Shown: positions 35,890 to 41,070 of the stretch, one piece after another
Layout of the letters: every line of letters starts with the position of its first letter
Numbering within the stretch: position 1 is the stretch's first letter
Source: Promethearchaeota archaeon
GTDB taxonomy: Archaea > Asgardarchaeota > Lokiarchaeia > Sigyniarchaeales > SOKP01
DNA: 64,000 nt
Direction of reading: 5' to 3'
NCBI GenBank assembly: GCA_018238625.1
Contig: JABCSY010000002.1
Coordinates: 1 to 64,000, forward strand
The notes under the pieces: model-generated
Database searches by the model: none
The model's input: the letters and a program-made list of their open reading frames with translations, nothing else
Told to the model about the DNA's origin: nothing
Translations under genes and position numbers: made by a program

Positions 35890-36783
35890 TTAATTTTGTG
35901 TATCAAAATTAAAACTGATATTTTTAAGGAGTTCTTTATACCTTGAGCGTAATGTGACTTCCGTAACGGAAATTACGCGCGAAATATCTTTCTGACTCAC
36001 TTTAACGTTTCTCAACTTCGCGACAAGATATATGGCGCCCGCACACAATCCTTTAGGATCCTTGCCAGATATCGACGTAGTTTTAATAAAATTTTGAAGT
36101 ACGCGCATCGCCTCTTTTTCAACCTCGATCCCTAAATTCAAATCTGCGCAATAACGTGGAATGAGCGTTACCGGGTCAATATGCGATATTTTTAAATTTA
36201 ACTCCCGAACCAATATTTTATAGCACTTTTTTACTATGTTATCGTTAATTGAAGCTTCTGCTAAAATCTCTTGAAGAGTAATTGGTACTTTTTCGTCTTT
36301 ACACGCGTAATAAGCGCACGCTGCAACCATACCATTAATTGACCTGCCTCTTAATAGTTGTCTCTTAAAAACTTCTTTATACAATCGTACTGCGGATTTT
36401 TTTACTCTTTCAGGAAAATTTAAGTTGCCACCAATTCTTTTTAATTCGGTTATAGCCATTAACATGTTGCGTTTCTCCCAAGATAAGTGCGTATTCCATT
36501 TAGCAGCCCGCCTTAAATCTGGGTTTTTGATTTTAGTCCTATCAATAACAGTACTTAAGCCAATATCGGGCATTAAGATCGACATAGGAGATCCTGTACG
36601 TTCCTTTCTATCTTTTTCGTGTTTAGAATAGGCTCTAATTCCGCTATGGTTAATGTCTAAATTTCTCTCACCTACAACTAAACCACATTGTTGGCAGACG
36701 GTTTCCCCTCTTTCTAAAACATTGATTGTACTTCCCCCGCATTCGGGGCATAAATTTGCTAACACATCTATTTCTACGACCAT
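35890..36783 (-). CDS. tfb: Transcription initiation factor B (TFB/TFIIB)
   Basis: 297 residues. The N-terminal zinc ribbon CPECGG...CQQCG is followed by the B-reader/linker (SGIRAYSKHEKDRKERTGSP) and two cyclin folds. The first has LRGRSINGMVAACAYYACKD (the TFIIB signature) and the second ISGKDPKGLCAGAIYLVAKL with a C-terminal recognition helix (KDISRVISVTEVTLRSRYKEL). It recruits RNA polymerase to TBP-bound promoters and reads the BRE. The window shows no TBP gene. Confidence 0.96.
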   Translation of the reverse strand: MVVEIDVLANLCPECGGSTINVLERGETVCQQCGLVVGERNLDINHSGIRAYSKHEKDRKERTGSPMSILMPDIGLSTVIDRTKIKNPDLRRAAKWNTHLSWEKRNMLMAITELKRIGGNLNFPERVKKSAVRLYKEVFKRQLLRGRSINGMVAACAYYACKDEKVPITLQEILAEASINDNIVKKCYKILVRELNLKISHIDPVTLIPRYCADLNLGIEVEKEAMRVLQNFIKTTSISGKDPKGLCAGAIYLVAKLRNVKVSQKDISRVISVTEVTLRSRYKELLKNISFNFDTQN

Positions 36784-37309
36784 TTTAATATACCTCTTTT
36801 CAAACCATGTAAAATTTATCTTTTTTTAAATTTTTTTTTCGTTCTCCTAATTTTCATAGGAATTAATTGATAACAAAAATTATTTTTTGTACACATAATA
36901 TTTTGATTGTTATCACAAATTATACTTCTTACATATTTAAACATTACGATTTTAATTCAAAAATTTACTAATAACAGCAACAAATTTTTTTTTTATAACG
37001 AATTCAATTTTTTTCTGTGAAAAAAACGAATTTGAATATAAATATTTTTAATGGGATTAAAAATCTATATAATATCGATATATACCATAAATTAAGATTC
37101 TTTTTTGTTGGGATTTGATTTTTTGATTTTCTTACCAAGGAATTATTTTGGAATGTAGAAATCTGTTAACATTTCATTTTTTTCGTAAGTTAACGCGACT
37201 TAAATTACTCAAAAAAAAATAGTTGCTTAAGTGTGAGCAAAAAATTTCTATTTAGATAATATTAAATAATACTTCTTTCACTAATTTTTTGGTACAAATC
37301 GTGTTTTAA
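36784..37309. other. AT-rich intergenic region between TFB and the receiver-protein pair
   Basis: About 525 bp with no convincing ORF. It contains long T and A runs and several TATA-like elements (ATATAAATATT near 37040, ATTAAATAATA near 37262). It probably holds the divergent promoters of tfb and the first HisKA-receiver gene. No RNA gene recognised. Confidence 0.5.
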
Positions 37310-37456
37310 GGTGAAATATTAATCACGGAAAAACGTAGAAGCTCGAACAAATCGGAAGATGGGTCAAAAAAAGGAGACCACAATTCAAAAACTGAGAAAG
37401 AGCAACCTGAAATTAATAAGGGGGGCAAAACTGAAAAAAACGGCGATAGTCCTCGA

Positions 37457-38365
37457 ATGACTAAAAAAGAAATTGAAAACCTTGATTTGAACGATGAAAA
37501 AATTAAGCGTCTCATGGAAAAATACAAGAGAGAAACGGGTAAATACGTGATTTGGCGGGGGACTGTAACAGAGGGCTTTAAAAAATGGTTAAAAGGCGAG
37601 AAAATATATACACGAGATAAAGAAAGAATATCTTTATATGTAGCTGACGACACTAAGGATGAGTGGCAAGAATTCATTAACATAAACAAAGATGATTTTC
37701 CTACTTTTTCTGAACTAATAAGGCAGAGCGTCAAGTCGTTTATTGAAGACTCTAGTAAAGTTTCGAGCGAATTATCAAAACTTAACCCAAAAACAATATC
37801 CAACATATCTCACGCGTTAAAAGAACCGCTAACTTCTATTAAAGGGTACTCTCAATTATTGCTTGAGAGCGAAGATTATAAAGGTAAATTGAGCAATCAT
37901 GTAAAAGAAACTGTGAAAAATATCTTTGATCAAAGCAATTTGTTAGAAAATATTATAAAGAATTTCTTAGACAACATCAAACCCGATAGTTCTCCATACG
38001 ATATTTTATTAATTGAAGACGATTTAGCGACAATTCGATTGATCACCAGTTATTTTGATAGTAAAAAATACAAGTGTAAGGGTGTAGTTAGCGGAGCGAA
38101 AGGGTTAGAAGAACTACGAAGAACCACCCCTAAAGTCATTTTATTAGACATAATCTTACCAGACTTAAGTGGGTACGATATTTGTAAAACCATAAAAACT
38201 GATAACTCTTTTAAAAAAATTCCTGTGTACTTTCTTACGGCCATTTCGGCGTCTGAGGTAAAAAAACATGTTGAAGAAACAAAAGTAGATGGGTTTATTC
38301 TTAAACCTTTTAACTTTTCTGATTTTGACGTTATTTTTAAAATATTAAATGGAAGAGCAAAATAA
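37457..38365 (+). CDS. RHH-HisKA-receiver protein 1
   Basis: 302 residues from the ATG at 37457. In order: a conserved block VIWRGTVTEGFKKWLKGEKI (31-50); a ribbon-helix-helix-like unit (RISLYVADDTKDEW, then TFSELIRQSVKSFI; 57-95); a HisKA phospho-acceptor helix ISHALKEPLTSIKGYSQLL with His119; and a receiver domain with Asp188/189, acceptor Asp231, Thr261 and Lys283. No HATPase_c domain follows HisKA. The frame stays open upstream to 37310, adding a charged stretch like that of the paralogue; GGTGA at 37310-37314 lies 7 nt before an in-frame ATC, so initiation may be there. Roughly half of its residues match the next gene. Confidence 0.82.
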   Translation: MTKKEIENLDLNDEKIKRLMEKYKRETGKYVIWRGTVTEGFKKWLKGEKIYTRDKERISLYVADDTKDEWQEFININKDDFPTFSELIRQSVKSFIEDSSKVSSELSKLNPKTISNISHALKEPLTSIKGYSQLLLESEDYKGKLSNHVKETVKNIFDQSNLLENIIKNFLDNIKPDSSPYDILLIEDDLATIRLITSYFDSKKYKCKGVVSGAKGLEELRRTTPKVILLDIILPDLSGYDICKTIKTDNSFKKIPVYFLTAISASEVKKHVEETKVDGFILKPFNFSDFDVIFKILNGRAK

Positions 38366-38560
38366 TTAGAGTCAAATTCTCCTGTAAAAATCCTTAATTA
38401 TATGAGAAATTATTGCTTACATTTAGAGATAAAATATTATAGATTACTTACATATTAAAAAAAAAAAAACAATGTTTATTTTTTGTAAAAAATTACTTTT
38501 ATGTAATATTTGATAACAAAGTTAGAATTTTTTATAATTAGTAAATATTTACGGTAAATT

Positions 38561-39565
38561 TTGAACGGTAAAAAGCAATTAAATCACATAGTAAAAAAAA
38601 GGGTGTTAAAAATTCCTGACGAAAAGAAACGCAATAATAATTCGAACGGTGATAATAACTATTCTATACCTAAAGTAACTGAAAACGAATTAAAAAATCT
38701 TGATTTGAAGAGCGAAAAAACCAAAGAACTAATGAAAGAATACGAAGAAGAAACCGATAAATACGCTATCTGGCGTGGTTCTATAACCGAAGGCTTTATT
38801 AAATGGTTGAAAGGAGAAAAGATTTATGATCGCGAAAAAGAGCGAATTTCGTTGTATGTAGCCGATGAAACTAAAGCTGACTGGCAGGATTTTATAAATA
38901 CTCATAAAGAAAAATACAAAACCGTATCAAAACTCATAAGAGAAAGCGTAAATTACTTTATTAAACAGAAATCGGGCTTAATCGGTGAAGATTTGCATAA
39001 ACTAGACGAGAAAACTCTTACGAACATATCCCACGCGTTAAAAGAGCCATTAACATCAATTAAGGGATTTTCACAACTATTGATTGAGAATTATAAGGAG
39101 GAATTGACGGAAGATGTATTTAATACTATAAAAAATATCTTCGATCAATCTTTACTTCTCGAGAATAAAATTATTAGTATTCTAGACAATATAAAAATGG
39201 AAAGTTCTAAGTACGACATTTTGCTTATCGAAGACGACTTAGCGACAATTAGATTGTTAACGAGCTATTTTGATAGCAAAGGTTTTTCTTGTAAGGGTGT
39301 CGTAAGTGGAACAAAAGGATTGCAAGAATTAGCCAATAACCCTTGTAAATTAGTTCTACTCGATATTATTTTGCCAGATTACAGCGGTTACGATATCTGT
39401 AAAAAAATTAAATCAAATAGAAATCTTAAAGACATACAAGTCTTTTTACTAACAGCCATCCCGGGTTCTGAAGTAGAAAAAAATTTTGAGGATAGTAAAG
39501 CTAACGGTTACATCTTAAAACCATTTGATTTCTCTGATTTTGAAGTGCTATTTCAATATTTATAA
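38561..39565 (+). CDS. RHH-HisKA-receiver protein 2
   Basis: 334 residues from a TTG. A 40-residue charged linker, then AIWRGSITEGFIKWLKGEKI (69-88), an RHH-like unit (RISLYVADETKADW and TVSKLIRESVNYFI, 95-134), HisKA with ISHALKEPLTSIKGFSQLL (His158), and a receiver domain (IEDDLATIRL with Asp225/226, Asp268, Thr298, Lys320). As in protein 1 there is no ATPase domain. It could take phosphate from a separate kinase and act directly on DNA, or serve as a phosphorelay scaffold. It lies 195 bp after paralogue 1, so the two arose by tandem duplication. Confidence 0.82.
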   Translation: MNGKKQLNHIVKKRVLKIPDEKKRNNNSNGDNNYSIPKVTENELKNLDLKSEKTKELMKEYEEETDKYAIWRGSITEGFIKWLKGEKIYDREKERISLYVADETKADWQDFINTHKEKYKTVSKLIRESVNYFIKQKSGLIGEDLHKLDEKTLTNISHALKEPLTSIKGFSQLLIENYKEELTEDVFNTIKNIFDQSLLLENKIISILDNIKMESSKYDILLIEDDLATIRLLTSYFDSKGFSCKGVVSGTKGLQELANNPCKLVLLDIILPDYSGYDICKKIKSNRNLKDIQVFLLTAIPGSEVEKNFEDSKANGYILKPFDFSDFEVLFQYL

Positions 39566-39601: not shown

Positions 39602-39705
39602 CGGGCTATGAGGGACTTTCGCCTCCATCTGATAAGGATGGAAGTATCGAACCCCCGACCTGCCGGTTAAGAGCCGGATGCGCTACCTGCCTGCGCTAAT
39701 AGCCC
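39602..39705 (-). tRNA. tRNA-Lys(CTT) with a 30-nt intron in the T loop (59/60)
   Basis: Acceptor GGGCTAT/ATAGCCC, discriminator G, D arm GCGC/GCGC, anticodon arm TCCGG-CTCTTAA-CCGGC (anticodon CTT; 27/43 unpaired). The T stem GGGGG/CCCTC is split by an intron at 39616-39645. Structure: T stem, central helix TTCG/CGAA, 3-nt bulges ATA and AGT, inner stem CTTCCATC/GATGGAGG with loop CTTATCA. Cutting after base two of each bulge gives a 7-nt T loop TTCGATT and a 74-nt tRNA. This is a textbook bulge-helix-bulge at a non-canonical site. Confidence 0.92.
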
Positions 39706-39729: not shown

Positions 39730-39834
39730 CGCACCTGGAGGGATTTGAACCCCCGAGCGCTTACGCGCACTGGCTTGCTTGATAGTTTCTATTGTACGCT
39801 CAAGGCCAGCGTCTTACCACTAGGCTACAGGTGC
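39730..39834 (-). tRNA. tRNA-Ser(TGA) with a 23-nt canonical intron (37/38)
   Basis: Acceptor GCACCTG/CAGGTGC, discriminator G as in serine tRNAs, long variable arm (TGCGC GTAA GCGCT), T arm GGGGG-TTCAAAT-CCCTC. Anticodon stem CTGGC/GCCAG. The loop is interrupted at 39776-39798; central helix CTTG/CAAG with 3-nt bulges AGC and CAA. Splicing gives the anticodon loop CTTGAGA (anticodon TGA) and an 82-nt tRNA. It lies 24 bp upstream of tRNA-Lys on the same strand, so the two are probably co-transcribed. Confidence 0.92.
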
Positions 39835-40073: not shown

Positions 40074-40562
40074 ATGAGTGGGGCCAAAGATTTTAGATAT
40101 TTAATTCCGGAGCGAATCTTTAAATCGATAACTGACAGAGCAGCAGAAGTGTATCCTAACATCGAAAATTACTGGATTTTTGCGGATCGTAAAGAAAACT
40201 TCGGAATAGTTAATAAATTTATTGTTAATCCAGATTTGAGAAAAACCAAAGTTCACGTAAAACCTAGAAGTTGGATGCGATATAAGAAATCGAAAATCTA
40301 CAATATGCGGAAGTTTAAACAAGAGCTTGGAATAGATATAATCTGGCAGGCTCATACACACCCTTCAGGAAACGAGAAATTACACGCAATCGATAAAAAG
40401 ATTTTAAAATATCTCTCAAATGGTGTAATGATAATTGTAATTCCTAATCTTCCCGAAAACGAACCTCCTTTAAAAGCCCATTTAGTTGGTTGGTATTACG
40501 ATAAGCGATACACGAAGAAGCCAATCATCGAGATGATGGTGTTCGAGATAATCCAAGAGTGA
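40074..40562 (+). CDS. JAMM/MPN-domain metalloprotease-like protein
   Basis: 162 residues. DIIWQAHTHPSGNEKLHAID fits the JAMM zinc motif HxHPx(6)SxxD except that the serine is replaced by His. GVMIIVIPNLP and KAHLVGWYY follow, as in MPN folds. The N-terminal LIPERIFKSITDRAAEVYP and NYWIFADRKENFG match the first helix and strand. Asgard archaea encode RPN11-like deubiquitinases of this fold; whether this copy is active is unclear given the Ser-to-His change. No ubiquitin, E1 or E2 gene is beside it. It sits between two tRNA groups. Confidence 0.75.
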   Translation: MSGAKDFRYLIPERIFKSITDRAAEVYPNIENYWIFADRKENFGIVNKFIVNPDLRKTKVHVKPRSWMRYKKSKIYNMRKFKQELGIDIIWQAHTHPSGNEKLHAIDKKILKYLSNGVMIIVIPNLPENEPPLKAHLVGWYYDKRYTKKPIIEMMVFEIIQE

Positions 40563-40967: not shown

Positions 40968-41070
40968 GGGCCCATGGTCTAGTGGTTATGATTCAATTTT
41001 TAGAAATTGAATAATATACGTCTCGCTTACACCGAGAAGGTCGGGAGTTCAATCCTCCCTGGGCCCACCA
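40968..41070 (+). tRNA. tRNA-Val(TAC) with a 27-nt intron in the D stem (23/24)
   Basis: Acceptor GGGCCCA/TGGGCCC, discriminator A followed by an encoded CCA, anticodon arm TCTCG-CTTACAC-CGAGA (anticodon TAC), T arm GGGAG-TTCAATC-CTCCC. The D arm is interrupted at 40991-41017 by a bulge-helix-bulge: helix GTTA/TAAT, 3-nt bulges TGA and ATA, inner stem TTCAATTT/AAATTGAA with loop TTAG. Splicing restores TATGACG, the D-arm 3' strand seen in normal valine tRNAs, and a 73-nt molecule. It lies 23 bp after tRNA-Ser(GCT), probably on one transcript. Confidence 0.92.

Follow-up and report, generated by a model that had tools for sequence, protein, structure and literature searches.

The window, the whole 64,000-nucleotide stretch analysed here, comes from a Lokiarchaeia metagenome-assembled genome of 4.29 Mb in 201 contigs. 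It carries two tandem genes, RHR1 and RHR2, with a divergent gene for TFB, a homologue of TFIIB, upstream of them (Table 1). Each protein is predicted to combine a ribbon-helix-helix (RHH) segment, a HisKA domain and a C-terminal receiver (REC). HisKA and Response_reg exceed the Pfam cut-offs (26.9 and 30.2 bits, respectively) in both proteins. No Pfam match to HATPase_c was found in either, and a local HATPase model likewise detected no such domain in any RHH-HisKA-REC member scanned. The first-pass annotation, made from the sequence alone, had described a HisKA with its His joined to an intact receiver in the absence of a kinase ATPase domain, and the profile scores agree with it for both copies. 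The full-length AF2 model (pLDDT 89) comprises an N-terminal module, the RHH segment, two long HisKA helices and the receiver, and Foldseek searches with it return receiver matches.

Table 1. Features of the TFB-RHR locus in the window, followed by related loci elsewhere.
Feature	Coordinates	Strand	Remarks
TFB (TFIIB homologue) gene	35890..36783	-	divergent from RHR1; synteny across seven genera
Shared TFB-RHR1 intergenic region	36784..37321	.	such regions enriched in TGTGTGTA/TACACACA
Window variant of enriched motif	36883..36898	-	TTATGTGTACAAAAAA on TFB strand; between TATA-like TTTAAATA and TFB start
TATA-like TTTAAATA	36934-36941		upstream of TFB start
RHR1 (RHH-HisKA-REC copy 1)	37322..38365	+	frame open from 37310; first ATG 37457 (ORF 37457-38365)
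N-terminal Lokiarchaeia-specific module, RHR1	37496..37594	+	ETGKxxIWRGxxTxxFxxW
Ribbon-helix-helix segment, RHR1	37616..37747	+	family model, profile matches, AF2, Foldseek
HisKA, RHR1	37796..37972	+	Pfam 46.7 bits; H-box His codon 37811-37813, H+1 = Ala
Receiver, RHR1	38003..38323	+	Pfam 71.3 bits; phospho-Asp codon 38147-38149
RHR2 (RHH-HisKA-REC copy 2)	38561..39565	+	TTG start as listed
N-terminal module, RHR2	38714-38824		
Ribbon-helix-helix segment, RHR2	38834..38965	+	family model; profile and Foldseek support at family level
HisKA, RHR2	39014..39169	+	Pfam 31.3 bits; H-box His codon 39032-39034, H+1 = Ala
Receiver, RHR2	39218..39541	+	Pfam 62.1 bits
PAS-HisKA-HATPase kinase	L040:8084-9526		same strand, ~60 nt downstream of regulator L040:7175-8023
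REC-PAS-HisKA-HATPase kinase	L041:6520-8757		linked to own-genome single
PAS-HisKA-HATPase kinase	L042:1764-4178		linked to own-genome single
Module loci beyond the window	L178:2363-2476, L179:2551-2670, L182:3449-3568, L181:2152-2505 (-), L044:3135-3254		

Both genes, like many of their orthologues, have an apparent ATC, ATT or ATA start 6-8 nt past a GGTG. RHR1 could start with an ATC at 37322 after GGTGA and RHR2 with an ATT at 38612 after GGTG, a site at which the orthologues L028 and L033 have ATG. A coding signal ahead of the first ATG of RHR1 was considered and rejected: codon-position differences there are near flat (0.11, 0.15 and 0.16; core 0.04, 0.03 and 0.12), so this part is either not translated or under weak constraint, and where RHR1 begins is uncertain. 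Regulated non-AUG initiation is possible in these genes. Genome-wide, ATT, ATC and ATA starts showed no clear enrichment outside the family.

Ribbon-helix-helix segment

Neither RHR1 nor RHR2, taken singly, reaches the Pfam threshold for an RHH family. Among 68 homologous segments, RHH_1 is the family most often matched (14 of 68, best E 3e-4). A profile search of the PDB with the segment places 2kel, which we take to be an archaeal-virus RHH protein, at the top (E 0.14) and also lists 2k9i (ORF56, presumably an RHH protein as well). The AF2 model of the segment (pLDDT 88) has an extended stretch followed by two helices. RHH proteins account for six of its nine Foldseek matches in the PDB (ParD2, ParD, PrpA, ParB of pCXC100 and yiiF), with an rmsd of 1.6-2.0 A over ~45 residues and E-values that are weak (>1) because the segment is small. 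The ribbon-helix-helix reading made at first pass, for which structure prediction had been proposed as a check, is upheld by this strand-helix-helix fold.

ParD antitoxins are among the closest structural matches, and the segment might, as in antitoxins, mediate protein-protein dimerisation instead of reading DNA; ParD proteins bind DNA too. This alternative is improbable, given that the outward strand pattern R106-x-S108-x-Y110 (numbering in the 37310 frame) is kept in 138, 112 and 123 of 142 homologues and the helix-B N-cap Ser in 141 of 142, and given the motif enrichment and TFB synteny at the tandem locus described below. RHH-HisKA-REC proteins are quite probably DNA-binding response regulators.

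Distribution of the family

At least 142 distinct sequences keep the RHH-HisKA-REC order, which is thus not due to chance. Profile searches detected the family in 63 genomes, out of 228 for the Asgard phylum and 83 for the class Lokiarchaeia (the genomes are MAGs), and its members belong to two families within a single order of that class. Close relatives are nearly all annotated as Lokiarchaeota. The source genome encodes five full members, namely the tandem pair and three single copies, and contig C156 of this genome encodes a weaker relative that has a receiver without a recognisable HisKA. An RHH-HisKA-HATPase-REC intermediate was not found among the fetched ORFs.

The first-pass annotation had considered this domain order undescribed. 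It had in fact been reported by Galperin et al. 2018 (PMC5847659), in a single sentence that names four 'Arc-type RHH-HisKA-REC' proteins from Lokiarchaeum and to which the main text adds nothing. The Lokiarchaeum GC14_75 proteins have the same order, in four copies in one Lokiarchaeal genome (PMC5847659). That sentence comes without function, conservation, pairing, linkage to kinases or TFB, or analysis of the H-box. Since the architecture was already noted in 2018, the value of the present analysis lies in linkage and mechanism and not in the domain order.

Receiver conservation and the role of HisKA

Across the 142 homologues, the receiver residues D1, phospho-Asp, Lys and Pro are invariant (142/142), D2 is kept in 137, and the Thr position holds Thr in 138 and Ser in 4. 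Of these homologues, 133 retain the H-box His and all 142 the Lys at H+3, and the helix-packing positions of HisKA are conserved to the same degree as the His. In 85 members from close pairs (genus g2, which is HK-linked, was set aside) the His is found in 85 of 85, inside the almost invariant stretch SH[A/T]LKEPLT[S/T]IKG. An acidic residue at H+1, needed for autokinase activity (PMC3510030), occurs in 32 of 142 homologues overall, and Asp occupies this position in 3 of the 85 close-pair members. Both window proteins have Ala at H+1 and Glu at H+4. Because HATPase, the H+1 acid and the phosphatase-specific Thr/Asn at H+4 are missing, HisKA is unlikely to work as an ordinary kinase or phosphatase module. 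The pattern of conservation indicates that the H-box His is under strong constraint despite the missing H+1 acid.

HisKA could be solely a scaffold for dimerisation and docking, with a His that is either a relic or a contact for the receiver that is not itself phosphorylated, the unphosphorylated residue being the His. This would fit the missing HATPase and H+1 acid, the equal conservation of the helix-packing positions, and the repeated loss of the His outside the tandem clade, where it is replaced several times (by Tyr, Leu, Arg or Phe) and the receiver Asp is kept. However, full retention of the His in the tandem clade is unexpected for a relic, and we place this explanation somewhat below even odds. 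The proteins could instead be true phosphorelay nodes, in which phosphoryl groups pass from the receiver Asp to the HisKA His and on to another receiver (e.g., between RHR1 and RHR2), making them DNA-bound, HPt-like relays. The invariant His of the pair members within its near-invariant stretch, although H+1 is uncharged, argues for such a node, as do the invariant Lys at H+3 and the persistence of the two copies together since before the genera split. Against it, several lineages outside the tandem clade have lost the His and kept the receiver Asp, so a relay is not required by all members, and no downstream receiver was identified; we regard a true relay node as unlikely. Participation of the His in a relay is a tentative proposal and less likely than not.

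The first-pass suggestion that HisKA serves for dimerisation stands insofar as the domain is at least a dimeriser. Overlooked at first pass were the missing H+1 acid of the H-box, the kinase genes beside many paralogues, the divergent TFB gene and the N-terminal module shared with other proteins. We favour receiver phosphorylation as the core function, in which case the His would be an accessory site for docking or transfer that carries most weight in the pair. The retained His is probably a docking site or second phosphoryl site for the receiver.

Linked kinases

A gene encoding a HATPase kinase lies within 500 nt of 27 of 51 unpaired representatives (clusters at 97%). In 21 of the 51 it is tail to tail and at most 150 nt downstream, and in 4 it is downstream on the same strand. 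From the 36 HATPase matches in the 4.29-Mb source genome, we estimate that adjacency by chance would be roughly 1%. All three single copies in this genome have an adjacent kinase. The kinases that adjoin single-copy relatives are likely to be their trans-kinases, as judged from gene order. No linked kinase was found for the tandem pair within the DNA examined. Phosphorylation by a separate kinase, as had been suggested at first pass, is likely, with HATPase kinases next to many paralogues and an unlinked one for the tandem pair.

HATPase-only proteins, also raised at first pass as co-occurring partners, do exist in the genome. Those on contig C77 were tried as trans-engines and rejected: they are RsbRD-STAS, STAS, RsbW/RsbT and SpoIIE-like proteins, which belong to partner switching and are not obvious engines. 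In a split kinase, the HisKA His would receive its phosphoryl group in trans, straight from a protein with a HATPase domain, and the HATPase proteins without detected HisKA in the source genome would be in keeping with this. Such an arrangement is nevertheless very improbable: nearly all pair members lack the H+1 acid required for autokinase activity (PMC3510030), the HATPase-only proteins that were examined are of the RsbW/SpoIIE type, and the linked kinases have a HisKA of their own.

As a separate observation, genes for RsbRD-STAS, STAS, RsbW/RsbT-like, SpoIIE-like, HATPase and REC proteins follow one another in a row on contig C77 (L206:507-4446). By gene content, this Lokiarchaeon appears to have a stressosome-like set of genes for partner switching here.

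The tandem pair and its TFB neighbour

Based on phylogenetic analysis, first copies and second copies form two groups, each found across several genera, so the duplication is older than those genera; support is moderate at the base of the tree, and second copies of genus g7 fall in the first-copy group. The tandem pair appears to be an ancient duplication whose copies are usually still adjacent. A divergent TFB gene lies upstream of the pair in 23 of 25 loci from seven genera, a count that, like that of the motif below, does not represent independent cases because the tandem loci are phylogenetically related. The distance between TFB and the pair is usually 340-1000 nt (1.8-4.6 kb in three loci). 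Of the two loci without TFB, L084 has little upstream sequence on its contig and L077 is a rearranged pair on a 9.4-kb contig. Downstream, many loci continue with orthologues of three window genes, those at 40074 (JAB/MPN-like on visual inspection, without a Pfam match), 41081 (DUF2110) and 42628 (proteasome alpha). With nine TFB genes (18 repeats) in the source genome, the TFB divergent from RHR1 is one among several paralogues.

Three tRNA genes that ARAGORN missed were detected by Rfam at 39634-39705 (-), 39730-39834 (-) and 40968-41067 (+). The lengths of two of them, ~100 nt, suggest introns.

In the TFB leader, a locus-specific motif, TGTGTGTA, is abundant. Among 28 non-redundant TFB-RHR1 intergenic regions, 18 contain GTGTGTA/TACACAC, with 24 occurrences in total, and GTGTGTA is absent from a further 66 kb of intergenic sequence of this genome set, a background whose loci differ from the tandem loci. 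Most copies lie between the TATA-like TTTAAATA and the TFB start, and most point the same way, so the motif may function within the 5' leader RNA of TFB or be bound by a different protein. The enriched motif could be an operator or a leader-RNA element. A genome-wide regulon was also sought and rejected: in six genomes, TTTACACACAAA (with at most one mismatch) was no commoner than the reversed sequence used as a control, and the enrichment is thus local to the TFB-RHR1 locus.

Proposed mechanism and relation to known systems

From the computed domains, conservation, kinase adjacency, TFB synteny and motif enrichment, we infer that these proteins are response regulators that bind DNA as homodimers and are phosphorylated in trans, and that the tandem pair most likely regulates the divergent TFB and itself (probability roughly 0.6). 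Taken by itself, control of the divergent TFB by the pair is about an even call. Each biochemical step of the scheme is likewise deduced. A stimulus would lead to autophosphorylation of a separate PAS-HisKA-HATPase kinase, which would pass the phosphoryl group to the Asp of the C-terminal receiver. The HisKA helices would form a four-helix dimer hub that couples both ends of the protein and is rearranged on phosphorylation. The paired RHH would read DNA, and rearrangement of the hub would alter its binding and thereby change the expression of TFB and the RHR genes.

In response regulators of the OmpR/PhoB type, the receiver governs DNA-binding output, through a winged helix, in a dimer. Here, RHH stands in for the winged helix, the order is reversed and a HisKA hub is inserted. 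Hybrid histidine kinases (HisKA-HATPase-REC) have, as here, HisKA followed by a C-terminal receiver, but in the proteins studied here HATPase is absent, RHH replaces the sensor and the H+1 acid is mostly lost. Archaeal proteins with HisKA and no HATPase, and REC-(PAS/GAF)-HisKA regulators such as AF_1472, likewise carry a His-bearing HisKA without HATPase, sometimes with REC, and dimerisation or phosphotransfer has been proposed for them (PMC5847659). Unlike RHR1 and RHR2, the AF_1472-type regulators have PAS/GAF and no DNA-binding domain, and REC comes first, as in REC-(PAS)n-HisKA (PMC5847659).

Archaea have few DNA-binding response regulators, none of them from the typical bacterial families (PMC5847659). 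The family described here is a concrete candidate route from the output of the many Asgard PAS-kinases to gene expression. The answer that we offer is a set of regulators with an RHH output and a kinase-dead HisKA hub, often encoded beside a likely kinase, with one ancient pair tied to TFB, a promoter-selecting basal factor.

N-terminal module

The module at the N-terminus of both proteins has about 30-35 residues (consensus YEEETGKxAIWRGKxTxxFxxW). Matches at E <= 1e-6 come from 75 of 224 Asgard genomes, and with a single exception these 75 belong to the regulators' own order of Lokiarchaeia. Verified hosts are RNA polymerase A' (at the extreme C-terminus), aIF2-gamma and an ABC ATPase (both at the N-terminus), ribosomal L13e (two copies in the C-terminal tail) and an RHH-LRR protein. 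The module matches PF01693, the RNase H1 N-terminal domain, weakly in 2 of 16 instances (best E 0.009 alone), and that of the L13e protein scores 20.5 bits with a cut-off of 21. The RNase H1 N-terminal domain is hybrid-binding. Our guess is that the module contacts nucleic acid or a shared partner. A further step, which we hold to be speculative and rather improbable, is that the module brings TFB-partnered, phospho-controlled regulators into contact with polymerase, with nucleic acid or with a shared partner, as a Lokiarchaeia-specific transcription-control unit. If true, two-component signalling would govern a sigma-factor-like switching of promoters in this archaeal relative of eukaryotes.

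In a protein encoded at L088:4709-6067 (-), ~2.7 kb from an RHH-HisKA-REC gene, alternating RHH and module units are followed by leucine-rich repeats.
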